Assembly: GCA_963920575.1 (NCBI GenBank)
Contig: OY986969.1
Location: forward strand, 9,111,096 to 9,175,095
Direction of reading: 5' to 3'
Source: Narthecium ossifragum
Lineage: Eukaryota > Streptophyta > Magnoliopsida > Dioscoreales > Nartheciaceae
DNA length: 64,000 nt
Shown here: positions 37,187-63,511 of the stretch, in pieces
Layout of the letters: each line of letters opens with the position of its first letter
Position numbering within the stretch: position 1 is the stretch's first letter
Program-made: the position numbers and the translations under genes
Notes under the pieces: model-generated
Told to the model about the DNA's origin: nothing
What the model saw: the letters and a program-made list of their open reading frames with translations, nothing else
Databases searched by the model: none

Positions 37187-37219
37187 CAGCGAGGACGCTG
37201 GGCCTCCAAGGGGGGTGGA
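37187..37219 (+). promoter_or_regulatory. Cassandra hairpin and polypurine tract
   Basis: CAGCG-AGGA-CGCTG (37187-37200) is a perfect 5-bp stem with an AGGA loop. Seven bases later comes the purine run AAGGGGGGTGGA next to the 3' LTR at 37221. Confidence 0.8.
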
Positions 37220-37620
37220 TTGTGAGGCCCGCTGGGTTTACCGTTGGACAAGATGGCTGATGAGACGTGAAAAGTACACAAGTTAACCCCTTAATTTACC
37301 TTTATTAGTCTTCGAGCAAGGTATTCCTAATAATCTTCATAGTATTTTAGGTACAAGAGCCTTCAACAGAAGTTAGATCAACTTTGGAGCGTAAACGAGC
37401 CTATTCGAGCACATTTAGGTACATGGGTCAACTTCAAAGATTAAACTGTACCTTCTCAGGAAGAACCAGATAATGTGCCATATATCATTGGAAAGCTCTG
37501 GAAGTCTAGCTTCTGAAGAATTTTACGGTTCATGATTCCGGGTTTCCTAGATGAAGTTATGGCATTTTTCATACCAATGCGCAGTGCTGAATGGCAAAAG
37601 AGATAATATGCAGAAAAGAA

Positions 37621-37784
37621 GATCGATCCTCACTATGGGAAGGATCGATCCCTTTTGCACATTTTCCAGTGACAGAACGCAACATTCTTTAGGATCGATC
37701 CTTATCTACTGAAGGATCGATCTTCGTCGGTGCGCAGCCAGAACTCAAGAGGAGGATCGATCCTTTACCCTATAAGGATCGATC
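37621..37784. repeat. Three GATCGATC pairs in family C U3
   Basis: Starts 37621/37643, 37693/37715 and 37755/37777, each pair exactly 22 bp apart. The full word is usually AAGGATCGATCCTT. The array ends 65 bp before the TATA box. The 3' LTR has the same array at 42800-42963. Confidence 0.92.
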
Positions 37785-37848
37785 CTTTTGTGCCAGCCGA
37801 GCAAAATCAATGGTCCAGATCTAATCCGAGTGGGGGATGCTTGGAGGC

Positions 37849-37857
37849 TATAAATAG
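37849..37857 (+). promoter_or_regulatory. TATA box of family C 5' LTR
   Basis: TATAAATAG, preceded by the palindrome array and followed by a G-rich leader. The 3' LTR copy is at 43028-43036. Confidence 0.7.
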
Positions 37858-38920
37858 ACCCCTTTTGGGGGATTTTGGGATTCTTTTGGGCAAGAAGAGG
37901 CTAAGGAAAGGGGCAACCCCCTTGGGCAAGGAAGGGAGCTCTCATCCAAGAGGGAGGAGATTGATGAAGAAGAGGAGGATCCATCTCTTCTCCATGGCTT
38001 CTCCATCGAAGATGAGTAGCTAATCTATTTACCTACTGGAATACCATGATGTTTTAGATTTTTATTTGTAGTTTTCTTTGGATTTGGATGTTGTAATCCT
38101 TATGAGACAAGATTGTATGGATTTATTCTTCATTTCTATATCTTTGTAGTGGGATTCTAATGTTGGATGGATGGATTCTTTGGTTTGCATAAGCTAGAAC
38201 CTTGTGCCCAATAGGTGTTTGTTGATATTCCCCAATGAGTAGGTTGTGCTAGAACCATGACCACTTGTGTTAAAGGGAGTCTTGGCTCTAGGTTAGGGAC
38301 TTGGTTGTGCTAGAACCACTCCAATCCACATCTAACCTAGCATCTATCCTATCTTTTGTAGTGTTTTGGATTCGAGATGCTAGAACCACCTCGATCCATT
38401 ACCATATTTCATACAACCCGATTCCTTGCGACGAGATGATCCTAACCCGACCTCTTGTTGGCGATGATTGAAGCTAATCCCTCGATTTTCGACTTTCTAG
38501 CATACACCTAGTGCGACGGATAGTCCTTATCCGGTTATTCGTTAGCGACGACCTTTGTTAGCCACAAGGTAGTCGATATTGTAGTGTCTCGATAGGATTT
38601 CATATCTTGATTCATTAGAAAGCTATGATTGAGCCTAATCCGGATTGGGATTCCCTAGGACCTCTCTCTATCCATTGAATCATTTACATGCTTTCTTAGT
38701 TTTCATATCCTAAAACCCAAAACCATTTCTTTTATTATCTTTGTAGGAACACTTAGATTGAGGTAAGTAGTTTAATTGTTTCCTTACGCATTCCCTGTGG
38801 ATTCGACTCGGACTCACCGCTAGCTACCCCCAAAGGTAGTTAGTTAGGAGTTTGATTATAAATTTCTAATTTTGATCGGGCGCGTTAAGCCGCGATACTT
38901 TTCACGTCCCATCAAGATTT

Positions 38921-38937
38921 TGGCGCCGTTGCCGGGG
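38921..38937 (+). other. Primer-binding site, tRNA-Asp
   Basis: TGGCGCCGTTGCCGGGG, a perfect complement of the plant tRNA-Asp 3' end, six bases after the LTR. Confidence 0.92.
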
Positions 38938-39208
38938 AGTGCTATCGGAAATGATTGAAGTGCTTTGCTTAATCTAGTGTTTCTTGTAAATATCTTCAAT
39001 TTTAAATTTTGTTTCATATCTTAAAAAAAAAGAAAAAGAGAGAGAGAGATAGTTGTACTTACAATTGCTATATTTTTGTGTTGATAGGAGACGCTTTCGG
39101 CAAGACTTCGACGATCAAGATTAGCGACGGACGTCTCGTGCTTGGACCGGCCCATTGTAAAGTATTTCTACCTTTTGGCTTGGTCTTTGTTTATGTGATT
39201 TTTTATAC

Positions 39209-40920
39209 ATGGCCGATGAATATATGCCACCTGGTGCCGCATTGAACGATTATTTGTTACCACATAATTATGCATCCGCTTATGTTAACGATACATATGA
39301 TTTCTCCAACCCGGCATATGATTTGCATTCATACACCTATGATCCGGATTCGAGTAATCATCCATACTCTTGTTGGATACCCCAAGGTTACTATCTACCT
39401 AATGTTCAACCACAAGGTTCGAGCATACCGGACCAAAGTTTTGCACCTAGCTCTACATCGCCCTATCTTTGTCAAACACAATACCCACCACCCCAACATT
39501 GGCACGAGCCCTCCAGTTCTTTCGAACCACAAGCACAAATAGATCCATCTTTGGATGAAAGGATCCTTAAAGCTCTAGAGGCATTTGAAGCACAAAACCA
39601 ACTTATACATTCCCACTCACAATCATTAGCCAATATTGAAGTCCAAGTTGGACAACTAGCTTCCTTGATCTATTCATATTATGATGAGGTTGATGGTTGT
39701 GTGAGTGAGGATTGCCTTCTAATTTTAGTGATGATGCTTGTAATACCTATCTTACCAATGTTAGTGATACATGCAACTATGAGGTTCCTAATGAGGGTTC
39801 GCTCGTTCATGATAATTTGAATGATGTTTTGCCGGTGCGTGATGATATTATTGATGATGTTTTGCCGGTATATGTTGATTTTGTGAATGAGTCGAAGCCT
39901 CCGATTTTTGTTAATCTTGACATTGATGAGAATGATGAATGCATGCATGATTTGGTACCTCCCATGTGTCATGATAATGTTCTTAATGATATGATTTCCA
40001 ATCATATTGAGATTTCATGGGATATTACGATGCCGGTTTATGAAGGCTTCCTCAAGGACACACCTAAGATTGAGGATGAATCATTTGATATTAATGTGCC
40101 GGTTTATGAAGCTTTTCATGAGGATATACTTGATTTTGATAATGATTCATGCGATATTGTGTCGCCGGTTTATGAAGGTTTTCATGAGCATATATCTGAT
40201 TTTGAGGAGGATGATTCTTATGATATTGATGTACCGGTTCACGAAACTTTTTATGAGGGCTTACCTATTCTTGATGCATTGAATGACAATGATAACTTAC
40301 CAATTTTTGATGATTATGGGGATGATGGTGTTTGCAATGATACGTTGCCGATTTTTGACGTGTCGGATGAGAATGATGTTCTGCCTTGTTCAAATGATCA
40401 TGAAGACTCTAATGATATTTGCGAGAGCTTTTATAGGAAGCCTCAAATTGAGCCTCTACCTTCCATATCATCCACACTAGTTGAACATTTTGAGGGGCCG
40501 GGCCTTGTTTCAATTGAAGACCATGCCAATTTTCCACGTTATTTCATCAAGGACCTTATTGAGACTCCTCACCCTTCAAGTACTTTGTTCGCTAAGGGCA
40601 ATCCCTATTTCTTTGATGAAACTTGTTTGCATGAATTCAACTTTCTTCGGACCATGTATTTCTTTACCTTGAACCATCGGCCACCAAAAGCCGATTTTAA
40701 GATGGCCCCATTTATTACAATACATGGCTTGAAGGGTAGTAATTGGCCAATGACTGATGCTTTGCATGATTTCGTTGCCAATGATGCTTCATTCTTCTTT
40801 GATAAATCATGTTTGTATGTCTTTTCCATTCTTCAATCCATGTATTTCTTTACGTGGAACTATCGGCCACCCAAATTCAATTGTGTTGTACATAGCATAA
40901 CGTCAGGCAGAAGACGGTAA
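39209..40920 (+). pseudogene. Gag-derived ORF fused to acidic repeats (family C)
   Basis: Starts MADEYMPPGAALNDYLL and runs Tyr/Pro/Ser-rich to a helix ending SLANIEVQVGQLASLI, which matches the conserved C-terminal signature of Athila/Tat gag (L-E-x-Q-[VM]-G-Q-[LI]-A). A frameshift near 39712-39720 moves into a second open frame (to 40920), so about 570 codons in all. The second part has three or four acidic units of roughly 26-30 residues built on PVYEGF or PVYEAF followed by Asp/Glu-rich text. Then come two copies of a unit containing MYFFT.N.RPPK (residues around 40645-40690 and 40840-40880). No zinc knuckle, protease or RT. The function of the acidic part is unknown; it may mimic or bind a partner's Gag. 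Confidence 0.7.
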
Positions 40921-40931
40921 AATAAGCGCTT

Positions 40932-40949
40932 GTTGGGAGGCAACCCAAC
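40932..40949 (+). promoter_or_regulatory. Conserved hairpin after the ORF
   Basis: GTTGGG-AGGCAA-CCCAAC, a 6-bp perfect stem, 11 bases after the stop codon. An equivalent with a changed but paired stem lies at 60808-60823. Confidence 0.75.
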
Positions 40950-41245
40950 ATTTCCATGCTTCTTTGATTGTTTACTTGCTTTCTTGCATGCTTGATTGTT
41001 TTGTTTTTATTTTTGGCATGTTTACTTGGTTCCAATGAGTGTTTTCATGCATCCGGTACGTGAGTTTTGGCCTTGGTATGTTTAGATCTTTGTACGATGT
41101 TAGGCCAAGACGATGATGTTTGTACTCTTGCTTTTATTGGACTAACCCTTGGTCATATTTCATATCTTCTTTGCATTTGGCCAAGGTTACCTTCACATGG
41201 ATGCTTTGAAGCACATCAGGTTATCTCTTCCCTTTTACCCTTCAT

Positions 41246-41281
41246 ATGTGCTTGAGGACAACCACATTTAAGTTGGGGGGT
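41246..41281 (+). promoter_or_regulatory. Internal hairpin and polypurine-like run
   Basis: ATGTGCTTG-AGGA-CAACCACAT (one C/C mismatch in nine pairs), two bases, then AAGTTGGGGGGTA. It repeats the design of the 3' polypurine tract, about 1.15 kb upstream of it. Confidence 0.7.
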
Positions 41282-41649
41282 ACATTTGCATGCTCGATAA
41301 CCTGTGTACCTTCACTTAATTTGTCAATTTACTTGCATTGATGACTATGTGAAATTATTTTTGTCTTAGATGCTTGTCTTAGAGAACTATTGCACGGATT
41401 TTCTTGATTTTCATGTCTTATAAAAACTTGTGAATCATTGGATAAATGACATTTTTCTTTTACTTCAATTCGGCTTGGCACATTGTAAGGCTAATTGAGG
41501 TCCCAATCACCTGCGCACTCGCACTTGTATGAAGGATTGAGTGATTATCTTGAGTAGGGACCTAGATAGATTGAGATTCTGAAGCATATTCATGATCAAT
41601 TGATGTGACTTATAGTTGTGTTAAAAAATTTTCGTTGACTAGCCTTGAT

Positions 41650-41975
41650 TCGTAGCCTTCTAGGTTCGGGTAATTAAGTCTGTGGGGTGTTTTACACCTA
41701 ATGCCCTAAAGCCGCCTGGCTTGGGAGTCATTGACCCAATACTCGCTACATGGACCTAGTAGAAAACTTAAGGGATCAAGGCACTGCACAGTCACGCTAG
41801 TTGAATAAAAGCATAATGGTCATTAGTTGTGATTCGTGGCCTTCAAGGTTCGGGAGATTAAGCCTAAGGGGTGCTTTTACACCTAGTGCCCAAAAACCAT
41901 ATGGTTTGGGAGTCACTGGCCTAAATCCTGTTACATGGACCTAGTAGAAAGCCTAAGGGATCATGACATTGCACA
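41650..41975. repeat. Internal duplication of about 180 bp
   Basis: The block running from GATTCGTAGCCTTCTAGGTTCGG to CATGGACCTAGTAGAAA-type text occurs twice (from about 41648 and 41829). Each copy has a small hairpin with changed stems: AGCC-GCCT-GGCT in the first, AACC-ATAT-GGTT in the second. Confidence 0.7.
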
Positions 41976-42398
41976 ACCACATGCTCTATTCCTCGAAAAA
42001 AAAGAAAGAGAGAAAAGAAAAGAAAAAAATATGATTAGTGTTGAATAAAACATGTCACATGTTCAATTGATTTGAATTGCTAAGGATGATTGATCTTGAT
42101 TGGCTCCCTACTTAGATGATGATTACAAGACCCCGATTACTTGGTTGCTCCTTTCACGACACGTGATTGTTCAATTAGATCTTAATTGTGTCAAGTGCTT
42201 TGAAGTCTTGGAACTATATCATTTATATTCTTATTCATTTGCTTTTTACTTGGCCATGACTTGAGAGATAAAATTCGTGTATGGAAATCTACTTTGAGCA
42301 TCGGAGTTGAGAATTGATTGCATATGAATCAATGCATTGTATTTTGACAAATTAGTGGTTTTGGTTGTTTGTTTGTTTGTGTGTTTCTTTCTTTTTGG

Positions 42399-42436
42399 CT
42401 TTGCTCGAGGACGAGCAAAGTGTAAGTTGGGGGGTG
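42399..42436 (+). promoter_or_regulatory. Hairpin and polypurine tract of family C
   Basis: CTTTGCTCG-AGGA-CGAGCAAAG (42399-42420) is a perfect 9-bp stem. Three bases later AAGTTGGGGGGTG primes plus-strand synthesis and abuts the 3' LTR at 42437. Confidence 0.9.
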
Positions 42437-44093
42437 TGATGAGACGTGAAAAGTACACAAGTTAACCCCTTAATTTACCTTTATTAGTCTTCGAGCAAGG
42501 TATTCCTAATAATCTTCATGGTATTTTAGGTACAAGAGCCTTCAACAGAAGTTAGATCAACTTTGGAGCGTAAACGAGCCTATTCGAGCACATTTAGGTA
42601 CATGCGTCAACTTCAAAGATTAAACTGTACCTTCTCAGGAAGAACCAGATAATGTGCCATATATCATTGGAAAGCTCTGGAAGTCTAGCTTCTGAAGAAT
42701 TTTACGGTTCATGATTCCGGGTTTCCAAGATGAAGTTATGGCATTTTTCGTACCAATGCGCAGTGCTGAATGGCAAAAGAGATAATATGCAGAAAAGAAG
42801 ATCGATCCTCACTATGGGAAGGATCGATCCCTTTTGCATATTTTCCAGTGACAGAACGCAACATTCTCTAGGATCGATCCTTATCTACTGAAAGATCGAT
42901 CTTCGTCGGGGCGCAGCCAGAACTCAAGAGGAGGATCGATCCTTTACCCTATAAGGATCGATCCTTTTGTGCCAGCCGAGCAAAATCAATAGTCCAGATC
43001 TAATCCGAGTGGGGGATGCTTGGAGGCTATAAATAGACCCCTTTTGGGGGATTTTGGGATTCTTTTGGGCAAGAAGAGGCTAAGGAAAGGGGCAACCCCC
43101 TTGGGCAAGGAAGGGAGCTCTCATCCAAGAGGGAGGAGATTGATGAAGAAGAGGAGGATCCATCTCTTCTCCATGGCTTCTCCATCGAAGATGAGTAGCT
43201 AATCTATTTACCTAGTGGAATACCATGATGTTTTAGATTTTTATTTGTAGTTTTCTTTGGATTTGGATGTTGTAATCCTTATGAGACGAGATTGTATGGA
43301 TTTATTCTTCATTTCTATATCTTTGTAGTGGGATTCTAATGTTGGATGGATGGATTCTTTGGTTTGCATAAGCTAGAACCTTGTGCCCAATAGGTGTTTG
43401 TTGATATTCCCCAATGAGTAGGTTGTGCTAGAACCATGACCACTTGTGTTAAAGGGAGTCTTGGCTCTAGGTTAGGGACTTGGTTGTGCTAGAACCACTC
43501 CAATCCACATCTAACCTAGCATCTATCCTATCTTTTGTAGTGTTTTGGATTCGAGATGCTAGAACCACCTCGATCCATTACCATATTTCATACAACCCGA
43601 TTCCTTGCGACGAGATGATCCTAACCCGACCTCTTGTTGGCGATGATTGAAGCTAATCCCTCGATTTTCGACTTTCTAGCATACACCTAGTGCGACGGAT
43701 AGTCCTTATCCGGTTATTCGTTAGCGACGACCTTTGTTAGCCACAAGGTAGTCGATATTGTAGTGTCTCGATAGGATTTCATATCTTGATTCATTAGAAA
43801 GCTATGATTGAGCCTAATCCGGATTGGGATTCCCTAGGACCTCTCTCTATCCATTGAATCATTTACATGCTTTCTTAGTTTTCATATCCTAAAACCCAAA
43901 ACCATTTCTTTTATTATCTTTGTAGGAACACTTAGATTGAGGTAAGTAGTTTAATTGTTTCCTTACGCATTCCCTGTGGATTCGACTCGGACTCACCGCT
44001 AGATAGCCCCAAAGGTAGTTAGTTAGGAGTTTGATTATAAATTTCTAATTTTGATCGGGCGCGTTAAGCCGCGATACTTTTCACGTCCCATCA
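42437..44093 (+). mobile_element. Family C 3' LTR
   Basis: 1657 bp, colinear with the 5' LTR. It contains the palindrome array and TATA box (43028-43036). Confidence 0.93.
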
Positions 44094-45321
44094 ATGCCTA
44101 CGCCTGGAGGGCGAGGCTGAGTCGGGTAGCCGGGTAAGCAATCCCACAACGCCTGGGTATGGTACGGGGTTCGATATAAGTATATAGTAAGCCCTTAATA
44201 GACACAACGCCTTTTAAAGCCGTGCTGGCAGTGATACGCCAGAAAACTCCAAAGTTAAGCGTGCTTGCCTTGGAGTAGTCCCGGGATGGGTGACCTACTG
44301 GGAAGTTTTTTCAGATTTCTGCAATGAGCCAAAAGCGGACAATATTGTGTCGGGTGGGGCCCTCGGGTGGATCCTGGTCGGACCGGGAGCCCGGGGCCGG
44401 GGTCCAGTGGAGGGCCGGGGCGTTACAGTGTCGCCCTCAAGCAAAGACTGGGTGTACACAGGGGTCCCATAACCCCACCGTGTCATGGTCTTTCAGCCGA
44501 ACTGGTCACCTACTGGGTCGCCCTCAACGAGGCAGGACACCAGCACTGCCATCTCTCTAGCAGGAAACCAACACTGCTAGGCCGGCAACCAACACCGCTG
44601 AGTAGGCACAACCTCTACCCAAGAGACAGTGAACCGGACACCGGCTACACCTCAACACTCGGCTCGAGGCCGACACGACCTCTAAACATCAAACCACATG
44701 TATTCAGGTCATCTAACCCTATCATCGAGAAACGACTGAATACTACAAATCGAGTCCTGGATCAGGCTACCCGCAACGGTCCTAAAGCTAGATCCGGACT
44801 ACCCGAAAGCCCTGGATCGGCGATCAACCCATCGCCAACGTCCTACACAGATGCAACTAATGCACAAGGCAATGCATGTTATGAGCACACACATGAATAT
44901 ACAGATAAGCATACATCAGTATGTGGTTGTATATCAAACAAGGTCTGGGCACGGCACCCTGCCGGCCCGGGGTGGTGAACAGGTAAGTAAGGTCTAGGAG
45001 CTGCTACAGTGGTACCACCACCAACTGTCAGTAGTCCAGCACAACACCTGCATCGGAAAGCAGCCCCTCAAACAACAGCTCACATATATCACAGATAAAG
45101 CCCTCGGCGCACGCCGGCATGCAAGGCTAAGAAAAGCTGTAGGGCTACCCGCCTGTTTATTCTAAACACCCCGGGAGTCATCACTCCCCCGATTCACCAC
45201 TGCCCCTATTATAGGGCTAACATGCTTAAACATATGTACCAGATATAAAAGCGGTAAGGAAAACCGTCATACAAAGCCCCGCGGGCAAAACCAAGAAGAA
45301 TTTCTCTCTCTGCCGTAGACG

Positions 45322-45633
45322 GATCGATCCTTCCCCCCAAGGGAAGATCGATCCTTCTAATGGCAGGGAACAATCTCTCCATATCATACCAAGTAAGATC
45401 GATCCTTCCTCCCAAGAAGATCGATCCTACTCGCGATAGGGAACATCCTCACTACCGTTCCAAGGAAGATCGATCCTTCCCCCCTCAGGAAGATCGATCC
45501 TACTCGCAACGAGGGGGATCCCATGCTACCCAAGGCACAAGGATCGATCATCCTCACTCGAGAGTGATCGATCCTGCTTGGGTTCAGCATGACCAACAAA
45601 GAAGGATCGATCTGTCTCACAGAAGGATGGATC
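45322..45633. repeat. GATCGATC pairs in LTR3
   Basis: Pairs start at 45322/45346, 45397/45419, 45468/45492, 45542/45566 and 45605/45626; spacing 21-24 bp, pair period about 63-75 bp. This is the counterpart of 34488-34781 in the related LTR. Confidence 0.85.
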
Positions 45634-45976
45634 GAGTTGGGTTCTCTAGCAAACCTCCGACGAGAAATATCATCGGAAAACTCCACCAAATCTCACAAAA
45701 CCTTGGGATCTAGTAGTACGAAGGACCATGTGTCGAAAACCGGTGGAAATACTACAATCTCACAAGTATATATCAAGATCTAAGCACAAGATCACAAACA
45801 ACCGGAAAAACCTCCAAAAAATCCGAAAGAATTGTAGGTAGGATCCCTACCTAAGCAATAGCAACTTCAATCCCAGCTGCTAGGCCTTGGATCGTCCAAA
45901 ACCTCTTTGAAATCCAGAAACTCTCAGCTCAAGAACTCGGATTTCAAAAGAGATTTAAGAAAGAAGGTTACGTCCG

Positions 45977-45983
45977 TTTTATA
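45977..45983 (-). promoter_or_regulatory. TATA-like box of LTR3
   Basis: The minus strand reads TATAAAA, about 25 bp downstream (minus sense) of the array at 46007. Confidence 0.5.
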
Positions 45984-46006
45984 GACAAACAAACCGACCT
46001 AAGCAG

Positions 46007-46145
46007 GATCGATCCGTCCAAGAGGAACGATCGATCCGTCCAAATGGAATAATCGATCCGTCTAAGAGAATGATCAATCCTTCTCAACGATCCGCGTTCC
46101 TGGCATTGAACGATCGATCCTTCTAGCAAGGAAGGATCGATCCTT
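46007..46145. repeat. Second GATCGATC array in LTR3
   Basis: Words at 46007, 46029, 46051 and 46072 (spacing 22, 22, 21), followed by further copies near 46112 and 46134. They are linked by GATCCGTCC text. Confidence 0.85.
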
Positions 46146-46354
46146 CTTTCGCAAGAAGCTAGACTTGGGCTAAAACTTAAGCCCAAGCCCGGATCTTTCG
46201 ATCCCGGGTCCCACTAACCATTCTAACCAAACATTATCACAAACATGGTCAGTGTGTGCCCACGCGGGTGTGAAACTAGCTGACAATGCGCAATTTACCA
46301 AATTTCCCTTGTGTTCCACAACGAGCCACAGGAGTAGAGGGACGGGTCCTCACA

Positions 46355-46661
46355 ATCACACCGGCTCTAAGCACTCCTCGAAGTGTGACCAACCATGATA
46401 AGGATTACGTTGGTTCTAAGCGCTCCTTAACACGTGAACAAGGTAGAACAAATAGGGATTCCAGTGTATCTCCAATGCATCCCAAACCCTACAACTGGTA
46501 AAAAAATTAAAAGTAACAACCGCACTTAGATCTTGGCATAGAAGAAACGGCACGACCTCTAAACCTCAATCATTGAACATGGTAGCTTACAAAGATTACA
46601 ATAACAATCTCGCCCTAGATCTTGCTACCCAGCCTCGATCCTACGGCTAGATCCGAGTTGT
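46355..46661 (-). other. Remnant of LTR4 between insertions
   Basis: Middle part of the exploded family T LTR; contains the family text CACGACCTCTAAACCTCAA and CGGCTAGATCCGAGTT. No gene. Confidence 0.7.
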
Positions 46662-48105
46662 TTATGAGTCACTAAATATTCATAACTAAACCCCTTAATT
46701 TACCTTTGTTAGCCCAAGAGTGTTTTTATTTGATAGTTTGTTAGTTGATTTCAGGTTTAATGAAGATTCAAGTTAGAAAATACAGAAAAAGGTTAATATA
46801 CTGAAAATACGCTGCTTCATCGTCTGTCAGGAAATAAATCGCCAGAAATTCTATATAAGTCCAAATGTTCTGAAACTTTATGGTGTAATAGAAGACTTCC
46901 ATATCAACAACTTTGATGTCTGACACTTTGCGAGATTACCGATGGCTTGATACCATCTTTGAAGAATATAAAGATATATAGATGCTGGAAAACTAGTTCA
47001 TCGCCGTTCAAAATAATATTCACCAAATATTCCAGATAAGTTAGAATATTATTAAATCTTCAAGATATGACAGAAGACTTCATAATCTACATCATTTGTG
47101 TTGAGCATGTTTTCAAATTCCAGCTTGATTGGACCCAGTTGCGATTGAAGTAAGACAACCAGAATTAATTCAATGAATCCTGGTTGTAGTAGATGTCCAA
47201 CTTAACCAAAACCATAATTTCGAGACTTAACCTATAAAAAGGGGTTGGCTGGCCGAAAAACGATAGGCTCCATAAAGAGAAAAGAGAGAATTAGGGTTTT
47301 GAAGATTTCATGGAGAAGACGGAGTCGCGGCGCGGATCCCAAACATTCTTCATCGAATATATGACCTTCATCCCAAAGATGAGTGGTTGACTTCTTTACT
47401 TAGGGATCTCATGAAGCTTTAGTGTAGTTTCTTTGTATTTTCTAGTTTGATACTTTATTCTTTTTCTAGACATGATCTTATACATACGATTTTATTGTTA
47501 ATAGAGTTGAAGGAACATAGTTCCTTGACGTATATTTTGGCCTACTTGATTTCGGTAATTGATGTTAGAGATCTATAAGATAGTTTTGATGTTGTTTGTG
47601 AATAACCGATGAAATATTTTATGCTTAGTGATGATAGGTTGTGCGAAGGTTACCCCAAAGACAATCTAAGCTAATCGAAGATAAAATATGCCTTTGAAAA
47701 ACACTTACCTTCTTTTAGGGATTCATGTAAACTTAATAAGCTATGAATTTATAATGTCTAAATAAGAAAACAAGAGAATAACTAGAGAATACAGGAAGTG
47801 AAACTAAAGTGGATTGAGTAATCCTTAGGTTTCCTCATTGATCTATCTTAAATCCTTTTTACATTGCTTTCTTCGTTAGTTTTCATTAAATAATTATAAA
47901 AGAACCCAAATCAATCCTTCTTCACTTTAGGATTAGAGTTTCGAGATTTAATTCTGATTTTTCCTTGTTAGTCAAAGTTTTCCCTGAGGACCGACCCCGT
48001 ATTTCACCATTATCCTATCTTATTAATTTAGTGTTGAAAGAAAGGTTTATAAATTTCTAAATTGTGTTTTGCGTATGACTTAACGACATCGTTTGCAAGT
48101 GATCA
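46662..48105 (+). mobile_element. Solo LTR, family A
   Basis: Starts TTATGAGTCACTAAATATTC (TG mutated to TT) and ends GCAAGTGATCA. The flanks GTTGT and GTTAC match 3/5. The host LTR4 text is continuous across the gap (CCGAGTT to ACCCAAGCTCTCGGATCGGCG). 1444 bp. Confidence 0.82.
47233..47239 (+). promoter_or_regulatory. TATA box of family A solo LTR
   Basis: TATAAAAAGGGG, position-equivalent to 59565 in the related LTR. Confidence 0.6.
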
Positions 48106-51915: not shown

Positions 51916-51920
51916 CATCT

Positions 51921-52522: not shown

Positions 52523-52531
52523 TTGATTAAA

Positions 52532-53209: not shown

Positions 53210-56200
53210 ATGGATGATGATGTTATGGAAGATCCCCTTGCTGGCTTGTATGTTAGCCCACAGTCACCATTGCAAGCGGGATCTATCCCTCGAGTCAAAG
53301 AATTCAGGTATGTTGCGTTGGGGTAGAGTTATTCACTGTTATTAGACAACTGAACATGCTTTGAATGATCATTCTGGCTTATTTTTCCTTGTTATTAGAG
53401 TGGCCCAAGCTTCAACAGAACCAATGATGGAAATCAAATTATACCATTCTGGCTTTTGGAAAAGTCAGGCCAAGTCTGGTACGATGCAATATGAGTGTGG
53501 TAAGACAAAGACAATAAAGGTGCATCCAAGTCGATCTACATTTGAGGAGCTAAAGGGAGACATAACAGCTATCTGTTCATGGACCTTTGGTGCCCAGTTG
53601 CACATGTCATACCTGATACCAGGAAGCAATCCAAGGCATTATCATCATGTTCACAATGATGAAGATTACAAAGGGATGATTCTGCTTCATGAGATCTACT
53701 CGAAGAAGGTTGTCGAATTGTATGTAGAGACTGGCCAAGCAAGTGATTTGTATAGCAGTGCAAGGGCCACAGCTAGTGCCACTGCGGAGGCCATGGTAGA
53801 TGTAAGAAGTGTGGCTACTGCAGAGGCTACTTCAGAGGGTACAGCAGAGTGTACAGCAGAGGCTACTTCAGAGGGTACAGCAGAGGCAGCTACAACAGAG
53901 GCAAGTACAGGGGTAACAGCAAATGCTAGTGCACAAAGTGAAGGGAATGGTAAATCAGTTGGTCAAGCACATGGCACAGCTAAGGGCAAGGCTACAGCAG
54001 AAGTAAGAGCAGAATGCAGTGCAGAAGGCAAAACTGGTGCTAAGGCAAAGGCTAAGTCAAGGGCTACAGTGACTGAGTTTGCAAGCTTTTTTGATGACTG
54101 TTATGGATCAGGGGAAGCTTATGTAGAAGATTTTGAAAAAGACTGGGAAGAAGACTTGGACTTTAGGCCTGGGCATCCTAATGCAAACCCATTGACTGAG
54201 GATCCAGATGGCATCGAAGATGAGGCAGACTATGTTACTGATGATAGTGATTACCACCCATGCAGTGACAGTGAGGATGATGAAGATGATGTGCATATGG
54301 AGGAGGACAACATTGATGAAGTGCCTACGTATGAAGGGGTAATGGGCAATGTTGACATGGAAGATCCCAATTTAAATGTGGGTTCTAAGTTCAAAGATGT
54401 AGACCAACTCAGGCTTGCACTTAGGCAGCATTCCATCAAGCATAACTATGAGTTCTTTATCAAGAAGAGTGACAAGAGCAGGGTGACTGTCAGATGCAGA
54501 GATCTTGACTGCATCTGGAGGATTCATGCATCAAGACTTTATGATGGGAAGACATTTGAGGTGAAGACAATGAGGGGGGATCACACATGTTTTGGCCGCA
54601 ATGCAGCTGGAGGGGAGATGGTCACTTCAGCATGGATTTCAAGTAAGCTTACCCAGTTGGTGGCAGATAATCCAAAGGTGAGTCCTAGGGACATAAGGAA
54701 GCTCATGTGGGATCAGTATCAAGTCAGAGTCTCATACATGAAGTGTTGGAGGGGCAAAGAGCTTGCATATGAACAGGTACATGGTAACATAGATGATTCC
54801 TTCAATGATGTTTCTAGCTTGAGAGAGGAGCTACTTGTGAGAAACCCTGGAAGTGTGATTGAGTATACAGAGGGCCCAGATCATACCTTTGAGAGATTCT
54901 TCTGTTGTTTCAAGGCATGCATGGATGGGTTCATTGCAGGATGCAGGCCTTTTTTGGGTGTTGACTCAACCCATCTGAAGGGTAGGTATCTGGGTCAGCT
55001 AATGGCAGCTACAGCTTTGGATGGTAACAATGGGTTGCTTCCAGTTGCTTTTGTTGTGGTTGAGTCTGAGTGTGGGAATGCATGGAAGTGGTTCTTTGAG
55101 ATGTTGTCAGTAGCTATGGATGGTAGGGTTAATGACTTGACAGTCATCTCTGATCAGGACAAAGGCATAAAAGAAGCTATGCAAGTGGTCCTACCTAATG
55201 CAGAACACAGGATATGTATGCGGCACTATTACAAGAATTTCTGAAAGGTGTTTCCAGGAGATAACTTTGAGACTGCTGTGTGGAATGCTGCTAGGGCATT
55301 CACAGAACATGAGTTTGCTGCTGCCATAGCAGAGGTCCTAAGGAACTCAGATGGAGAAGCTGTTGTTGCTCATTTGGGGGCCATTAACAGTACATGGTCA
55401 AGGCACACCTTCAATGATACTAGTAAGAATATCTACATATGTAACAATCTGTCAGAGTCATTTAATTCCTGGGTATCAAATGAAAGATTTCTGCCATGTG
55501 TTGGGTTGGTGGACATGTTGAGGAGGAAGGTGATGACAAAAATGGATTTTCGGAGGAGGCTGTCAAGTAGGTGGAAGGGAAACTTGGTTCCTAATGCCAG
55601 GAAATATGTAGCTGATTTGTCAAGGAATTTAGGAGGTTACTCAGTAGTTATGGCAAGTGAATCCAGAGCTGAGGTGACATCTCCTTATGATAGGAATGAG
55701 GTTGACCTTGAAAATCATACATGCAGTTGTAGAAGATGGCAGTTGTCAGGCATGCCTTGTTTTCATGCTGCAGCAGTAATAGGTCAAGCAAGGAACCCAA
55801 ATTGGGAAAGTTTTGTCCATGAATACTTCAGCTTGCAAAGGTATATATAAGTAACTATACAATATCCATGATTAAATAATTAAACTTTGACCTGCAGTGA
55901 TATGATGTGATACAGGTACAGGGCAGGTTATGAAGGGTTCATCAGTACACTACCAGATAAAAATCAGTGGAAAAGGATTGATCTTGGCTATACCTTGCTT
56001 CCACCCCATACAGAGACAGGCCAAAGAAGAAGCGTATCCGAGGAGCAGATGAGAGGACAAAGAGTAAAAGACTACATAGGTGCTCAAGATGCAAGAAGTG
56101 GGGCCACCATCAGAACACCTGCAAGGAACCTTTAGTTGGAAGAGTTGAAGAAGATGGTGAAGGGTCTCGAAGTCAGGGGTAAACATTTAGCTTTTGATGG

Positions 56201-56769
56201 ATTTTTTATGTACCAGTTGAATGAATATGTTAATGGGCCTGAGACTGGATTTTTTATGCACCAATTCATGCAGGGGTGCATCTGGGACTGAGACTGGCAG
56301 TGGAGATGCTGGAGCCAGGGGTGGTAGAGGTAGAGGGACAGGTAGAGGCAGAGTCGGAGGAAAAGGAAGAGGTGGACCTAGGGGTGGGGGGGATAGTGCT
56401 GATGTGTCCATGGGGAGTTCTGATGCTAGGGGTGGCAGGGAAAGAGGAAGAGGAAGAGGAAGAGGAAGAGGAAGAGGTGGGAGAAGGCCAACAAATTCTG
56501 ATGTAGGGCAGATGTACTATAGGTAAGTACTTAGTATAGTAATTGACAATTTACTAGTGCTTGTGAGTTTGACAATAAAATCAAATCTGAAACTTTGGCT
56601 ACATAATTGACACAGTCAGCCTGCAATGATCCCTCATGGACTGGGAATGGGCCTTTATACACCTGATGACACAGCTCCCCGAGCCACCAGAGTTAAAGCT
56701 GCGGTCAAAAGAGGAGGGAAAGGTAGGGGCACAAGAGGAGGTGAAGGCATGGACACAGGAGCAGGATGA
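53210..56769 (+). pseudogene. MULE transposase (MuDR-like), five exons, two lesions
   Basis: My exon model: 53210-53307, 53399-55840, 55916-56178, 56274-56522 and 56616-56769, all with GT..AG borders and matching phases, about 1068 codons. An N-terminal PB1-like domain (EIKLYHSGFWKS) leads into an Ala/Thr/Glu repeat linker (53770-54060) and an acidic segment. The MuDR DNA-binding domain (KFKDVDQLRLALRQHSI, HTCFGRNA, VSYMKCWRGKELA) follows. The catalytic core has LGVDSTHLKGRYLG, DQDKGI and NLSESFNSW, then the SWIM finger HTCSCRRWQLSGMPCFHA. The zinc knuckle CSRCKKWGHHQNTC and an RGG-rich C-terminus come last. Lesions: TGA at 55242-55244 after HYYKNF, where Arg is usual (CGA to TGA would explain it), and one C missing in the run at 56004-56007. 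Everything else is open. Confidence 0.88.
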
Positions 56770-56854
56770 GGCATGGCTGGAGGCACACAGAAGCTAGCCC
56801 AGATTCTTGCAACTATGTATTGACAAGTGGGTTCTAATTTTTTGAACAATGTAT

Positions 56855-57010
56855 GTTAGTGGAGGAAATTTGTGTTGGAACAGCTATCTGTGTTGTCAGT
56901 GGAGGGAATATGTGTTTGAACAATATGGATGGAACAATGTATGTCAGTTACTTATTTGTTGTTCTATATTTGTCAGTGGAGGAAATTTGTGTTGGAACAG
57001 CTATCTTCAA
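56855..57010. repeat. Short duplication between convergent MULE genes
   Basis: GTGGAGGAAATTTGTGTTGG followed by AACAGCTATCT occurs at about 56859 and 56974, with a partial copy near 56897. It lies in the 56770-57311 spacer; no gene is seen there. Confidence 0.7.
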
Positions 57011-57311
57011 AATACTCTATGTATTGACACAGTGACTTTTTGCAATTGAAACAATGTTGTTCTATATCTGTCTTCTCTATTTGTGATTATAACACATGTA
57101 TGTCAGTTACTTCTATATTTGTGTACAGACTCAAATGATTCTGGGCCAAATTTTGACACAGCCATGTTACATAATTCTGTCAAATTAAAGTGTTACAGAC
57201 TCAAATGAAATACAGGAGTACAATTTCTAAGATCAAAACTGATTTGATCAGACATATTCAAGGGAAGTCTGGTACATACTCAAATGAAATACATGTATAC
57301 AATTCCTAAGA

Positions 57312-57857
57312 TCAACATTGTTCCAATTGCAAAAAACAAAGCACGTAGCAAAAGAAACATCTCATCTCTGCAGCAGATTTCTCAACTCGTTCCATGATGA
57401 TCAGTGATGCAGACAGACTCTCTTCATGCGATCCCATCCTTCTTATCAACAACTTCTCCAATTCTTTTACTTGATGCTTCAATACACTTATCTGATCAGA
57501 AACATTCAAGACCACAGATGATTGCTCGGATGTTTGCTCGGATGATTGCTCTGGACCATCAATCCACATGAAATAGCCACATCCCCTGCCATACTTGTTC
57601 TGAAACGTAAACAAGCCAAAACTTGCATTATGGAAATTTTGATTAATTTATCAGATTAAGCTATCAATACAGCCGAAATGTACCTTATAGTTTGGGCAAC
57701 CATAGAAGCGCCTCCCTTTGCTGTGATCTTGTCCAGATATACAAACATGACATGGCTCTTTGCAACCGCAAAGGATGACCTTGCAATCAAAGCCGGGTGA
57801 AGCTGCTGGAGAAGATGGCCCGGATGATGCCCATCTACTATTCTTCCTCAGGGCCAT
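57312..57857 (-). CDS. GRF zinc-finger coiled-coil protein encoded by MULE 2
   Basis: Two exons on the minus strand, 57857-57684 and 57599-57312, joined in phase 0 across an 84-bp GT..AG intron, give 153 residues. Residues 25-70 form a GRF-type zinc finger: CKVILCGCKEPCHVCISG, then GRRFYGCPNYK, then CGYFMWID after the intron. A predicted coiled coil follows (SDQISVLKHQVKELEKLLI, then a second helix) and a short Cys/hydrophobic C-terminus (CFFCYVLCFL) that could be membrane-associated. The start is the first ATG, 278 bp inside the right TIR. It is convergent with transposase, the position held by mudrB in MuDR, but unrelated to it in sequence as far as I can tell. GRF domains are known in nucleic-acid enzymes such as APE2, TOP3A and NEIL3, where they bind ssDNA. 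A role as an accessory transposition protein is my inference. Confidence 0.82.
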
Positions 57858-58135
57858 GGAGAAGTTGGTCCCAAACCCGACGGATCTTCACCGGAAATGC
57901 GAGGCCTTGCACGGATTTTGAGTCGTGGGGGCGATTTGACTTCGTGGGCGAGCTCGATGTCGGCAACAATGGCGTATTTTGAAACATAGGGCTTGAAGAA
58001 ATGAAGCAGTTGAACAAGAAAGGGGTTTAAATGAGGGTTTGTATGCAACGGTACTCCAGGGGCAAAACCGTCTTTTCCCCTGCTAACGGTAACAGCGTTG
58101 GGAATATTCCCACTGGATTCCACGGCAACTAACCC

Positions 58136-58249
58136 GAAGGGTATTTTTGAGATTTTTTGAACTTTTTAGGGGTATATATGAAAATATGAAGAATGTAGGG
58201 GTAAATACATAATTTAAAAGTTTTTTGAGGATATATATGTAAAAAACCC
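58136..58249 (-). repeat. Right terminal inverted repeat of MULE 2
   Basis: 114 bp, ending GTAAAAAACCC; probably also the promoter region of the GRF gene, as TIRs are in MuDR. Confidence 0.93.
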
Positions 58250-58258
58250 TTGATTAAA

Positions 58259-58757
58259 ATAGAAAGGTAGTTTCCAAAGTTTTTGTATACAAATCGAGTG
58301 GTTATAGAGTCAACGCGATCAATATGTAGCCAATCGGTCAATGTGGCTATGGCAAAAGGCTTTCAAACATAGTTGTCATTGTCAACAATTATTGAAGGGT
58401 TAATACTAGATTCAATCTTAGACAAATCAAAATATCACATATCATTCTACGATTTTGAAATATCATTTGTTTACAACAATATTAGGAGTTTAGGAGTCAT
58501 TTTACATAAGCTCTTTTGCCTCCCTCTGTTTGATTATCAGAGTTAACATAAACAAAACGCAATCAAATTCTGAAATATATGTACATGCTTTCAAATAATA
58601 AGATAAAGGGTATCCCTCAAAAAGTCTTGTGGGGGTTGTTAGCCAAAATAATGGCTAATCAATTAATGATTAATATGTCAGCATAATAAATATAGTCAAT
58701 AGAATGTCAAATCCAAATCGAACGATATCGCTGAAAGATAAGTTCATCACCCTAAGA
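58259..58757. other. Unassigned AT-rich sequence
   Basis: No open frame, repeat or RNA recognised between the MULE and the minisatellite. Confidence 0.5.
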
Positions 58758-58994
58758 TCGATATCGTCCAGAGAAATTTATTGATATCGTTCAGAGAAGC
58801 TTATCGATGTCGTCCAGAGAAGTTTATCAATATTGTCCAGAGAAGTTTATCGATATCATTCAAGAAACTTATCGATATCGTCCAGAGAAGTTTATCGATG
58901 TCGCTCAGAGAAATCTATCGATATCGTTCAGAGAAATCTATTGATATCACTCAGAGAAATCTACCGATATCGCTCAGAAAAATCTATCGATATC
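58758..58994. repeat. 23-bp minisatellite, about 10 copies
   Basis: The unit TCGATATCGTCCAGAGAAGTTTA varies at several positions (for example GTCC, GTTC or GCTC, and GTTTA or ATCTA). Each unit holds a TATCGATA-like palindrome. The array ends at the 5' LTR of the next element, whose presumed target ATATC lies in it. The open frame 58781-59008 is a by-product of the repeat. Confidence 0.9.
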
Positions 58995-60365
58995 TGATGA
59001 GTCACTAAATGTTCATGATTAAACCCCTTAATTTATCTTTGTTAGGCCTAGAGTGTTTGTATTTGATAGCTTGTTAGTTGATTTCAGGTTTGATCATGAT
59101 TTGAGGAGAAATGCAAGAAATTCGGTTAATATGCTGAAATACACTGCTCTGTCGACTGTTAGCACAATATTCACCAGAAATTATGTTTATCTCCAAATAT
59201 TCTGAAATTTGAATGAAAGCTAGTAGACATCAAGACATACAACTTTCATGTTGGATATTTTCAGAGATTCCAGATGGATTGATAGCAGTTTGGGAAAAGA
59301 TGAAGATAATTAGCTGCTGGAAGACTGGTCCGTCGACGCCCGGGAGAATATTCGTCAAATATTCTAGTTAAGTCCAAATATTGTAAACTATTCGGGAGAG
59401 GACAGAGGACTTCCAGATCTACATCGTTTGTGTTGGACTCGTTCTCAAATTCCGAACCGGTTGAGCCCAGTCGCGATTGGAAGAAGCTGTCAGGGTTGGA
59501 CCAGGAATTCCGAGTTGTACTTGAGGTCTAACTTAACCCTAAAACCCTAATCCGGGAATTAAGATATAAAAAGGGTTTGGTGGCTGAAAAACAGGATGCC
59601 CCTATAGAGAAAAACAGAGGAATTCAGATTGGAGAAGAAGACGGAGATGTGGTGTAGATCTAGGGACCTCATGAAACTCTAGTATAACATTCTGTATTTT
59701 CTAGTTGATTCTTGTACTTCTTTCTCATAGACATGATCTTATGGATTTGAATTTATTGATAATAGAGTTGATGGAAGTATTTCCCTTGACGTATTTTGTG
59801 TCCTACCTGATTGCTGTGCTTGATGGTAGAGTTCCATAAGATGGTTTTCATGTGGTTTTTGACACGCTTTTGAGATAATCTATGCTAAGTAAAAATAGAT
59901 TGTACTCAAGTTAAGTCCGAAGACAATCTATGCTACACGAACATAGGTTATGCCTTAGGTAGTCATCAACTTTCTTTTAGGGTTTCATGTGAGCTTAAGA
60001 AGCCATGATACCATAATGTCTAGAGAAGAAACAAGATGATAGCTAGAGGATACAGGAAGTGAAGCTAGAGTGGATTGAGGGATCCCTAGGTTGTTTCTCT
60101 CATTGATCTATTTCAACCTCTTTAATTGCTTTCTTAATTAGTTTTAATTAATTAGTTTCCAAAATCCAAATCAACCCTTCATTGCTTTAGGATTAGAGTT
60201 TTGAGATTCAATTTCACCTTCGTTATTCAAGTCAAAGTTTTCCCTGAGGATCGACCCCATATTTCATCATTATACTATCGTTTGAATTTAATATTGAAAT
60301 AAGGGTTTATAAATTTCTAAATTGCGTTTTACATCCGTTTTAACGACGACATTTGTGAGCGATCA
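58995..60365 (+). mobile_element. Family A 5' LTR
   Basis: TGATGAGTCACTAAATG to TTGTGAGCGATCA, 1371 bp. TATA-like ATATAAAAAGGG near 59564. It is near-identical to 63512-64000 over the overlap (only a few differences by eye). It has no GATCGATC array. Confidence 0.9.
59565..59572 (+). promoter_or_regulatory. TATA box of family A 5' LTR
   Basis: TATAAAAA, shared in position with the box at 47233. Confidence 0.6.
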
Positions 60366-60780
60366 ATTTTTGGCCGCCACCTACTCCTTTACCTATATGT
60401 GCACAGAGGTGTCAGTATATTCTAAACTTGAGCCACCACCTACTCCTTTACCTATATGTGCACCATCATCATTGCCTACATCCCTTCTGAGATTGAAACC
60501 CCCGCCATGTTTATTTTCGGTTTCTAACATTATGTGGGACACATACCGTAGACCGGGTTGCAAGATGAAACATGATGATAGGTTGCCATTCATAGAGGGT
60601 CGAGTCTCTAGTTCAAGTGTAGGGAGGAACGAACTGATTGGCCTACACCATCAAATACTATACTTACTGTGGGGTTGGGTTTAGTTTCAAGCATTATATG
60701 GAGAAAATTATTCTACGTGGGGTGATCGATGCCGTCGAATTGACGGATTCAGGCTTTAATTGCACCTTCTAGGGAAGTCT
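60366..60780 (+). other. Degenerate leader and short ORF region
   Basis: The primer site expected at 60371 reads TGGCCGCCACC, a poor match to tRNA-Asp. GAGCCACCACCTACTCC-type text is duplicated (60374 and 60431). The text near 60750-60790 (TTTAATTGCACC..) aligns with the end of the family C ORF, so this is a decayed homologue of that region. Confidence 0.45.
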
Positions 60781-60807
60781 AGCGAAAGACGTAAAATTAC
60801 GCGCTTT

Positions 60808-60823
60808 CTGGGAGACAACCCAG
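60808..60823 (+). promoter_or_regulatory. Conserved hairpin, family A copy
   Basis: CTGGG-AGACAA-CCCAG, preceded by ACGCGCTTT as GCGCTT precedes the family C copy. The outer pair is C-G where family C has T-A. Confidence 0.75.
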
Positions 60824-60962
60824 TTTTATGATTTTTCCTTAGCTTTTTGGAATTGTTTTGATTTTTAGGAATTTTTTCGTGATTTTTTCGATTTTTCCTT
60901 GATTTTCCGTGTTTTTTCTTTAAGAATAATCATAATATCTGGAAAATCGAATTTCCTGGAGG

Positions 60963-61150
60963 ACGGTCGACCGTCCCATCGACCGCCAGAGCGTCCGTGA
61001 GGCTCTGTCAAAAATAAAGCTTCTGAGGGTCGATGGAAGGATCGACCATCAGCTCCTCAAACAGGTAACGTGGGTCACGATCGGTCGAGTGATCGACCGT
61101 CCATTTATTTTTCCAAATTGCTTGGTTGACGGTCGATCGATCGATCGATC
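60963..61150. repeat. CGGTCGACC-type words in internal region
   Basis: Pairs of TCGA cores 12 bp apart (60967/60979 and 61030/61042), another group at 61085-61100 and a run of GATCGATCGATC at 61134-61151. Unlike the other families the array lies inside the element, not in the LTR. Confidence 0.75.
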
Positions 61151-61194
61151 GTCTGATTTTGTTCTCAAGTCACCCGCGCCCACGGTCGATCCGA

Positions 61195-61840
61195 CTTCAT
61201 CTTCTTCCTTCCTCATCACCGACCGCTAGCCATCTTCACCTCTCCGGCCGCTCCCCGCCCTCCAACCCACCTCCAACACCATCGCAATCTTCCCCTCTAC
61301 CTCCTCCCGGCCTCTTCTCCCCCCAATTTCGTCTCTTCCGACGCCGGCGAACATCCCCTGTTCCTACCGCCATCTCCGATCACCTTTTCCACTGCGTCCC
61401 ACCGTCCCTAACCACCTCCAGCACCTTCCTCTGGCCGTCATGACTCTTTTGCAACCTTCAAAACTCAAACTTGCAGCTCGGTTGGCCGGATTCCACCTCC
61501 GATGATCATTCACCGCGCCGGCCATCTTCTATCCGCCTCTTGGCCCTCCGATTCTATAATTAAATCACCTAGGTGCGTTCTCAGGCCTTCTGCGATGCTT
61601 CCTTGCTCCTTACCCACCTCGATTGAAGCTCCGGCCGCCGGATTCTAACTCCGACCATCTTCGTCCGCGCCGTCCACCGTCGTTCCGCCACCTGGCGACC
61701 ACCAGTCACAGATCAGACGACGTAGATAGACTCCTTGGCCTCCAACGATTCCATCCCTACTGGTCCCATCCTTCGGCGACGACGTTTCACCGTTGATCGT
61801 CGCCGGCGAGCTCTCAGCCGTCCGTTGGCTGATGGACGAG
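61195..61840. other. GC- and pyrimidine-rich block, possible captured sequence
   Basis: About 650 bp of CT-rich, high-GC sequence with GCCGG and TCCGACC motifs between AT-rich element DNA. The longest frame (61126-61443) is Ser/Pro/Arg-rich low complexity. Composition suggests a captured 5' UTR or first exon of a host gene; no family is recognised. Confidence 0.35.
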
Positions 61841-62378
61841 CTCTATAGGTCTCGACCTTTAACCAGGATCATGATATGGATACTGATTATTTGGGTGCTG
61901 TATATGGATGGTTTACTATATTTTATTATTTTAATATCTATATTTTTAATCATGTGGATGAATGGTTGTACAGGCTACATATTCAAGAAATACAAAAGGG
62001 GATTTTGCCGAAATTTTAAACAATTCTTATGCCTTTTTACTATTATTGATATATATTTCATTCTATTCTATTTGATCTTTTGGAAAGGTATCTTTTATGG
62101 CAGGTGGCCTTTGACACTCATTGAGGGGCGCATGTTGCAAATCTTATATAGATCAGTCAGGGGGTTATTCTTCAAGTCTTTACCTATGTCTCTAACATTT
62201 TATGGTGATTTCTATGGTTTTATTCATTTAATCTCTTCTAGAGACATGAATTCATTCAAGGATGACGTATTCTTCTTATGGGCGGTGGGGTGATCGTCTT
62301 TTATGCGAGCCAACTACTTATAACGCGATATTTACGGTGATCTCTATTCTTTTTCCTTGCTTTATTTTTCTGACTTAG

Positions 62379-62413
62379 TGTAATTGGGGACAATTACATT
62401 CAAGTTGGGGGTA
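62379..62413 (+). promoter_or_regulatory. Internal hairpin and polypurine-like run, family A
   Basis: TGTAATTG-GGGA-CAATTACA, a perfect 8-bp stem extendable by G-T and A-T pairs. Three bases later comes AAGTTGGGGGTA. It lies about 1.1 kb upstream of the 3' polypurine tract. Confidence 0.75.
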
Positions 62414-62789
62414 GATTCTAGGAATTTAATTTTTTTTATACATCTCTTGAAATATGTCAAAAGGATGAAATTATGATATGATTTGACAAAGATGCATGTT
62501 TTAGAAATTTATCTTATGAATTATTCTGAGACTTGTATGCCATATAAGAAATAGTAAATTTTTACTATGCATGACATTGTTTCTATACTTTAACACTTTT
62601 ACCTTGATTTAAGGATAACTTGACATATCCTGATGCACATGTTCACTTCCACATGTTAAGGGGTTGATATTAGATTCTAAGCATGATACTAGGATAGATT
62701 TACAATTTTATGTCATGACACAGAAAATACATGAACACATGCAATTATCTGAGTATGCGGAAAAAAAAAATTAAAGGATTTTCAACTTA

Positions 62790-62965
62790 GTAACCGGACA
62801 GTGTGCCTAGCCAGCGTGGTGTTCGCGTAAAACGGTTGAATTTCCTAAGAAAAAGTTCTGGAGCTTGATAAAGCTGTGCCTAAACAAAACCTTAAGTGTT
62901 TTGCTAAGTAACCGGGTCTCTGCTCCTCAAGAAGCGGAGAGTGCTCGCGTAAAAAGGCAAAGTGT
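62790..62965. repeat. Internal duplicated hairpin block, family A
   Basis: AGTAACCGG...CTCGCGTAAAA-type text occurs at about 62791 and 62909. The second copy forms a 7-8 bp hairpin (CTCTGCT with AGCGGAG, one G-T pair). It sits between the two purine runs, like the duplication at 41650-41975 in family C. Confidence 0.6.
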
Positions 62966-63473
62966 CTGATAGTTGAGAAAAAAAATGATGAAAAAGAAAA
63001 AAAAAAACAGATATTGCTATGTGATAAGTGGAAAATATGTGTTGGATAGGATTGTGATCTTGAATAGTTGAAGTGTTTAGATATAATTGACCCTCTGAAG
63101 CATGTGGAACCCCAATCACACACAGGAGTGTTAAAGTTGTTTTTAATCATGATTAAATATGTTGAAGTGTTGGAAATATGTTATGACATGTTTTGATTTA
63201 CTATGTTTTTATGCGACTATGAGTTGAAGGGTATATTTATGGATATTATTTCTATTTCATGCATTAGAGTTAAGGAATATTATGATTGATTTCTAGTGAT
63301 ATATTCAAAGGGATGTATAGATGCTTGTGGGTGTCATCCCTGAAAACCCTCAGGAGACTATAACTCCTCCACTGGGGTAACCCAGGGGTTTAAAGGCTTG
63401 TTGCACATGCTAAGTGCAATCGTGAGACCTACGAAAGTGGCTAGTTAGATTTATTGCTTTCGTTTTATATTTT

Positions 63474-63511
63474 CTTTGCTCGAGGACTAGCAAAGTGTAA
63501 GTTGGGGGGTG
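63474..63511 (+). promoter_or_regulatory. Hairpin and polypurine tract, family A
   Basis: CTTTGCTCG-AGGA-CTAGCAAAG (one mismatch in nine pairs), three bases, then AAGTTGGGGGGTG directly before the 3' LTR at 63512. Confidence 0.88.

Follow-up and report, generated by a model that had tools for sequence, protein, structure and literature searches.

In the available portion of one article on Copia and Sirevirus elements (PMC2829016), an inverted repeat flanking the polypurine tract (PPT) of Copia is proposed to guide RNase H, and Wright and Voytas (2002) are cited there for an additional PPT that Athila4/Calypso carries in its linker. The PPT mechanism is called unknown in the accessible text of a lentiviral study (PMC4439019), and a covarying hairpin offers a concrete, testable RNA determinant. 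Here, a stretch of 64,000 nucleotides of the Narthecium ossifragum genome (assembly GCA_963920575.1, contig OY986969.1, positions 9,111,096 to 9,175,095), hereafter the window, was analysed for hairpins with a purine loop that stand just 5' of the PPT in long terminal repeat (LTR) retrotransposons of Ty3/gypsy type and in Cassandra, a terminal-repeat retrotransposon in miniature (TRIM). These hairpins are real and non-random. The structure itself is well supported, and from it we infer a mechanism, with the hairpin presenting the PPT for plus-strand priming as the best reading of the sequences.

Seven hairpins had been listed in an initial annotation made from the letters of the window alone, and all seven were recovered verbatim, at their positions and on their strands. 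Five adjoin a 3' LTR, as had been claimed. On the forward strand these are the hairpin of Cassandra (tCAGCG-AGGA-CGCTGg, 37186..37201), the terminal hairpin of family C (10 bp, loop AGGA, 42398..42421) and that of family A (one C.T mismatch, loop AGGA, 63474..63495); on the reverse strand, Tekay-like element 1 has an 8-bp hairpin with loop GGA (22066..22084), lying within a pol open reading frame (ORF; 22043-23125), and element 2 a 7-bp hairpin with loop TGGAC (19175..19193). The corresponding PPTs are AAGGGGGGTGGA at 37208..37219 in Cassandra (3' LTR start 37221), 42424..42434 in family C, 63499..63509 in family A, 22048..22065 including a spacer in Tekay-1 (3' LTR from 22047 downward) and, in Tekay-2, the core AAGGGTA at 19163..19169 (3' LTR from 19156 downward). 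The elements were delimited by LTR pairs, at 37258-38915 and 42437-44094 in family C (99.2% identical), from 58995 and from 63512 in family A (98.8%) and about 96% identical in Tekay-1; the 3' LTR of Tekay-2 was also identified by pairing. The two remaining hairpins, on the forward strand inside family C (one C.C mismatch, loop AGGA, 41246..41267) and family A (10 bp, loop GGGA, 62377..62400, listed at 62379), had been listed as internal copies; each stands before a further AAGTTGGGGG, some 1.1 kb upstream of the 3' LTR, the internal PPTs being at 41270..41280 and 62402..62411 with no LTR adjoining them.

The names Tekay, Athila and Cassandra and the types of primer binding site (PBS), initiator methionine (iMet) and Asp, are labels which we assume to apply, rather than phylogeny-based assignments. 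Likewise, families A and C, and the genomic families L041 and L105, are taken to be Athila-type from the Asp-type PBS of C and the extra PPT, both presumed criteria. With these labels, the presence of the hairpin in elements with iMet-type and with Asp-type PBS was borne out. Calling the carriers unrelated was too strong, since both autonomous groups look like Ty3/gypsy elements.

The distinctive feature of the hairpins is position and spacing rather than the GGA loop as such. Using the coordinates of the initial annotation, the distance from the hairpin base to the first LTR base is 16 nt in families C and A, 18 nt in Tekay-1, 19 nt in Tekay-2 and 20 nt in Cassandra. The loop starts at index 30-31 of the 60 nt upstream of all five 3' LTRs, and its centre lies 27-29.5 nt before the LTR, an almost constant spacing despite varying stem length. 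Under the same scoring, no GGA hairpin was found at that place before any of nine other LTR starts (five are 5' LTRs belonging to the elements or families in question, and four are apparent starts that may be 5', solo or damaged); the best among them, of 6 bp before the 5' LTR of Tekay-1 and of 5 bp at 292, both stand at different distances. When 20,000 segments of 60 nt were drawn at random from the window, 1.6% contained a hairpin with a GGA loop and an unbroken stem of 6 or more, and 0.8% one of 7 or more; four of the five 3' LTR sites have a stem of at least 6, that of family A being broken by a mismatch beside the loop. GGA is not rare in itself, ranking third among loop trinucleotides when stems of 8 bp or more are counted. 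All four occurrences of AAGTTGGGGG in the window have a hairpin directly 5' of them. In a scan of 344 kb (the window and loci from the same genome), a PPT-like run came after the hairpin in 27 of 248 cases when the loop was GGA, in 21 of 291 when it was AGA and in 57 of 6192 for all other loops, the copies not being independent and 19 of the 21 AGA cases belonging to one family.

The strongest pairing data come from Tekay, for which 22 3' ends were compared, two of them from the window and 20 fetched from the genome. Pairing in the upper stem amounts to 97.2%, with a T-A/C-G switch on both sides in 10 of the 22. A lower stem, formed by the PPT core and a pyrimidine run upstream of the hairpin, is 82.7% paired, with both-sided changes at three pairs. 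In the window, this run is TACCCTT in Tekay-2 (19197..19203, reverse strand), complementary to the PPT at 7/7 positions, and CAACCTT in Tekay-1 (22085..22091, reverse strand), which can pair over its full length with the PPT in sister copies and at 5/7 positions with its own. Over the whole structure, 91.6% of cells are paired versus 85.8% in shuffled data, cells with both-sided change number 26 versus 10.3, and the covariation score is 0.284 versus 0.180; none of 500 shuffles reached any of these values, although such controls flatter a structure that was defined after the sequences had been viewed and in copies that are related. Structures slid along the alignment were 33-56% paired and had at most 10 both-sided change cells. 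Permutation of PPT against upstream run in the best register, over 17 distinct pairs, gave p 0.0019.

Across lineages, the best stem centred at -31 to -24, with any loop, was determined for 12 site classes (7 terminal and 5 internal), which are partly dependent on one another and several of which were taken from the initial annotation. Seven of eight pairs were reached in 9/12 classes, versus 12.8% of random 60-mers, and in 5,000 random sets of 12 neither 9 such classes nor the observed pairing sum of 85 was reached (the random sums averaged 64.3, with a maximum of 78). The loop so found was (R)GGA or AGA in 10 of the 12, another pairing being chosen for Cassandra and for the internal copy of L069. 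RNA folding of nine sites gave z-scores from -4.2 to -1.7 for six of them.

The genome itself (379 Mb) was searched with hairpin-blind queries made of a PPT and an LTR start, the hairpin itself never being in the query. The Tekay query found 3271 places (24 in the control); from the first 100 listed, 20 were chosen so as to vary the PPT, all on one contig (C1), and the hairpin was present in 20/20, with an unbroken stem of 7 bp or more in 18 and GGA in the loop in 17, and two copies (L110, L113) had an inner C.A mismatch. For Cassandra there were 693 places and none in the control; 17 of 20 copies among 100 listed have the hairpin, with one broken pair in four (L127, L138, L140, L143), and the three without it (L135, L137, L139) are those in which the internal domain before the PPT is absent. 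The Athila-type PPT followed by TGAT occurred at 283 places (5 in the control), and the motif was present in 29 of 30 Athila-type loci (one of an internal type), with GGA in 24; L065 was without it. As a direct query, the 20-mer of the A/C hairpin had 1453 exact places, against none in the control. L105, one new family taken from 30 kb adjoining the window, gave 861 places (5 in the control); among 100 listed, 20 copies all had the motif, 19 with GGA, and in 16 it outscored every other hairpin of the region, another pairing scoring best in L150, L154, L159 and L160. In the L041 family, which was located by a PF17917 search and has a Ty3-type RNase H, 18 of 20 ends carry a perfect hairpin with an AGA loop, including L091, which lacks the PPT; in L090 and L092 neither hairpin nor PPT was found by the patterns used. 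The loop, described initially as fixed, is GGA, AGGA or GGGA, with AGA fixed in one abundant genomic family. Closing bases said to be constant vary in Tekay-2, which has T instead of the inner G, and the stems reported as complementary include fixed mismatches in two Athila-type families (A-type and L105-type) and a mismatch at 41246.

The association with the PPT was borne out, and it includes internal PPTs. Several Athila-type families have a second hairpin and PPT, located about 1 kb upstream of the 3' LTR (41246-41280 and 62377-62411 of the window; 8250-8290 of L041). The internal hairpins of A, C and L041 have stem sequences unlike the terminal ones and are still paired, and their occurrence without an LTR end suggests that the hairpin is tied to the PPT and not to integration. 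A T-rich tract was observed 5' of the Athila-type hairpins in the copies inspected (L001-L008 and L043-L072); it resembles the U-box that precedes retroviral PPTs.

These features can be combined in one explanation, to which we give about an even chance: the hairpin would act in cis within the genomic RNA of Cassandra and of plant elements of Ty3/gypsy type, aiding plus-strand priming through stalling of reverse transcriptase (RT) and an RNase H cut. It would consist of an upper stem of about 6-10 bp with a purine loop, (R)GGA or sometimes AGA, immediately upstream of the PPT. Tekay-like elements would add a lower stem in which the PPT core pairs with the pyrimidine run 5' of the hairpin, making the PPT part of the 3' arm of an extended hairpin. 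During minus-strand synthesis, RT would copy U3 (the unique 3' region) and the PPT and then stall at the upper stem; RNase H, trailing the stalled enzyme, would be held over the PPT/U3 junction and make the correct plus-strand primer cut, and internal hairpins may help the second PPT to prime. In the RT of human immunodeficiency virus type 1 (HIV-1) the polymerase-to-RNase H separation is about 18, and the 16-20 nt between stem base and U3 are of the same order as such separations. The active sites of Ty3 RT are about 13 bp apart, as given in the part of PMC5371799 available, and RNA structure is reported, in the accessible text of PMC4439019, to pause RT and thereby affect RNase H cleavage. 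Among the roles initially suggested, spacing and PPT pairing would favour priming and RNase H positioning. More tentatively, and with doubt somewhat outweighing confidence, this may be a general priming module of plant Ty3/gypsy elements and Cassandra, with a hairpin about 28 nt before U3, a PPT-pairing run and an RNase H ruler, used at second PPTs as well.

Exposed G-rich loops in retroviral packaging signals, such as GGAG of HIV-1 SL3, are bound by Gag/nucleocapsid, and the purine loop could similarly be a Gag-binding packaging signal whose proximity to the PPT is historical. This is consistent with the wide retention of the loop, including in Cassandra, which is necessarily packaged in trans; however, packaging leaves unexplained the hairpins at internal PPTs, the near-constant distance to U3 and the pairing with the PPT in Tekay, and we consider it unlikely. 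Shared descent with drift, in which an ancestral palindrome was amplified from a few master copies and is now functionless, is rather less probable still. It would account for sequences that are nearly invariant within a family and for mismatches fixed in abundant families, and it gains from the weakness of the arm-swap test when calibrated; that calibration slightly raised our estimate for drift and slightly lowered that for a role at the DNA level. Drift does not readily explain why the internal stem of an element differs from its terminal stem while both pair, or the compensatory change between Tekay families together with PPT covariation.

Since a palindrome can fold on both strands, a cruciform or cDNA hairpin might instead act on minus-strand DNA or in integration, but the internal copies have no adjoining LTR end and a G-U pair at one upper-stem position in 10 of the 22 Tekay sequences suits RNA, making a DNA-level role very improbable. 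Marginally less probable again is a protein-coding origin, in which conservation of a peptide at the pol end would have produced the hairpin incidentally. The Tekay-1 hairpin does lie within an ORF, a frame of Tekay-2 encodes a comparable peptide (DEI.FK..R.), and in both the stop falls at LTR bases 3-5. In contrast, frames across the hairpin are short elsewhere (up to 345 nt at the Cassandra site, up to 189 nt at those of A and C), and of the two sides of the Tekay compensatory switch, one turns Phe into Ser and the other is synonymous; coding constraint is unlikely at the non-coding sites.

Several points weigh against an RNA hairpin that aids plus-strand priming. All sampling came from one plant genome and covered only Ty3/gypsy-type families and Cassandra. 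Arm swapping among sites, which uncalibrated gave 0/200,000 for the 12 sites and 3.5e-5 for an earlier set of nine, was dropped as the main test: 142 of 5,000 random sets show an equal excess, the test being inflated because the arms had been chosen for pairing. The initial claim of stem covariation holds for the T-A to C-G compensatory switch between Tekay families and is weak for arms compared across sites. Within Tekay, the number of pairs with both-sided change (4) was reached by 42/500 shuffles and that of pair types (13) by 344/500, so neither is unusual, and the Tekay-1 PPT is altered. Folding z-scores were +0.45 to +0.70 at three of the nine sites (Cassandra, the internal site of C, and Tekay-1), and stems are weak in the internal copies of L007 and L069. 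Most L105-type copies share a C.A mismatch from which L165 is free, and at the mismatch position of family A about 100 listed places have the pairing G in 7, A in 2, C in 1 and T in the rest. The loop varies between families, and pausing alone does not account for its conservation. The stem base stands 16-20 nt from U3, farther than the 13 bp of Ty3 RT, and RNA structure is held unlikely to modulate PPT priming itself in the available part of PMC3616985.

As for the other features of the window, the internal domain of Cassandra is only about 70 nt long and comprises PBS, hairpin and PPT; its PBS (37152..37163, forward strand), recognised from sequence, is presumably of iMet type. A 5S-like sequence in its LTR was recognised by eye only, Rfam at the gathering threshold giving no match anywhere in the window. 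The Cassandra PPT is also flanked by GGGCCTC/GAGGCCC (37199-37230), with the right arm within the LTR. Family C interrupts a Cassandra 3' LTR after 37 nt (36783-44429), an insertion that appears recent because its LTRs are 99.2% identical; its PBS, which we take to be of Asp type, follows the 5' LTR at 38921..38938 (forward strand), and its 402-aa ORF has no Pfam match. The Tekay-like elements have a PBS presumed to be of iMet type and encode RNase H, integrase zinc-binding and SH3_Tf2-1 domains, with RT in element 1; neither has a chromodomain match at E <= 0.001. Tekay-1 is nested within Tekay-2 (17.5-35.5 kb, reverse strand), near the latter's own PPT hairpin. An ORF for a MuDR/Mutator-like element (MULE) transposase lies at 53361-55244 on the forward strand.

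The setting is a very abundant class of plant DNA, and the hairpin could serve as a marker for internal PPTs and for the boundaries of 3' LTRs, and could help to match Cassandra and other non-autonomous elements with their helpers. A search of the open-access literature found no description of such a hairpin, in agreement with the initial annotation, which knew of no name for it; the sequence itself matched an expressed sequence tag-simple sequence repeat (EST-SSR) primer in one paper. A figure in a retrozyme paper (PMC4918200, seen in part) aligns the PPT boxes of Ty3-gypsy elements, and the motif may be visible there, unnamed. Other sequence collections supplied no usable plant elements, only two non-plant-looking contigs and ten bacterial chance fits; in the latter, a small chance control, TTC preceded GAGGACGAA in 0/10, so the 5' arm is absent.

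Compared with known systems, the PPT and central PPT (cPPT) RNA of HIV-1 and simian immunodeficiency virus (SIV) has the G-rich PPT end paired, with two PPTs of similar structure, whereas the portions of PMC3616985 and PMC4439019 available mention no purine-capped hairpin at a fixed distance; here PPT pairing covaries in Tekay and is predicted by folding in C, the internal site of A, and L041. As in the accessible account of Athila4/Calypso, where a hairpin is not mentioned, a second PPT stands between pol and the 3' LTR in A (62402), C (41270), L041 and others. The chromovirus Bongo3 likewise has an additional PPT, PPTa, near the gag-pol end, again without mention of a hairpin in the available text of PMC3605345. 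The Copia/Sirevirus inverted repeat is, as far as the available description goes, also a structure tied to the terminal PPT and proposed as an RNase H guide, in elements with multiple PPTs. Upstream PPTs there are without that structure, whereas internal PPTs here have hairpins, and the loop of the hairpins here is purine. The left arm of that repeat adjoins the PPT and the right arm lies inside the LTR; here both upper-stem arms precede the PPT at 3' LTR sites, the upper stem ending a few nucleotides earlier, and the Tekay lower stem includes the PPT. The additional GGGCCTC/GAGGCCC repeat of Cassandra, with its right arm in the LTR, resembles the Copia arrangement as described there.

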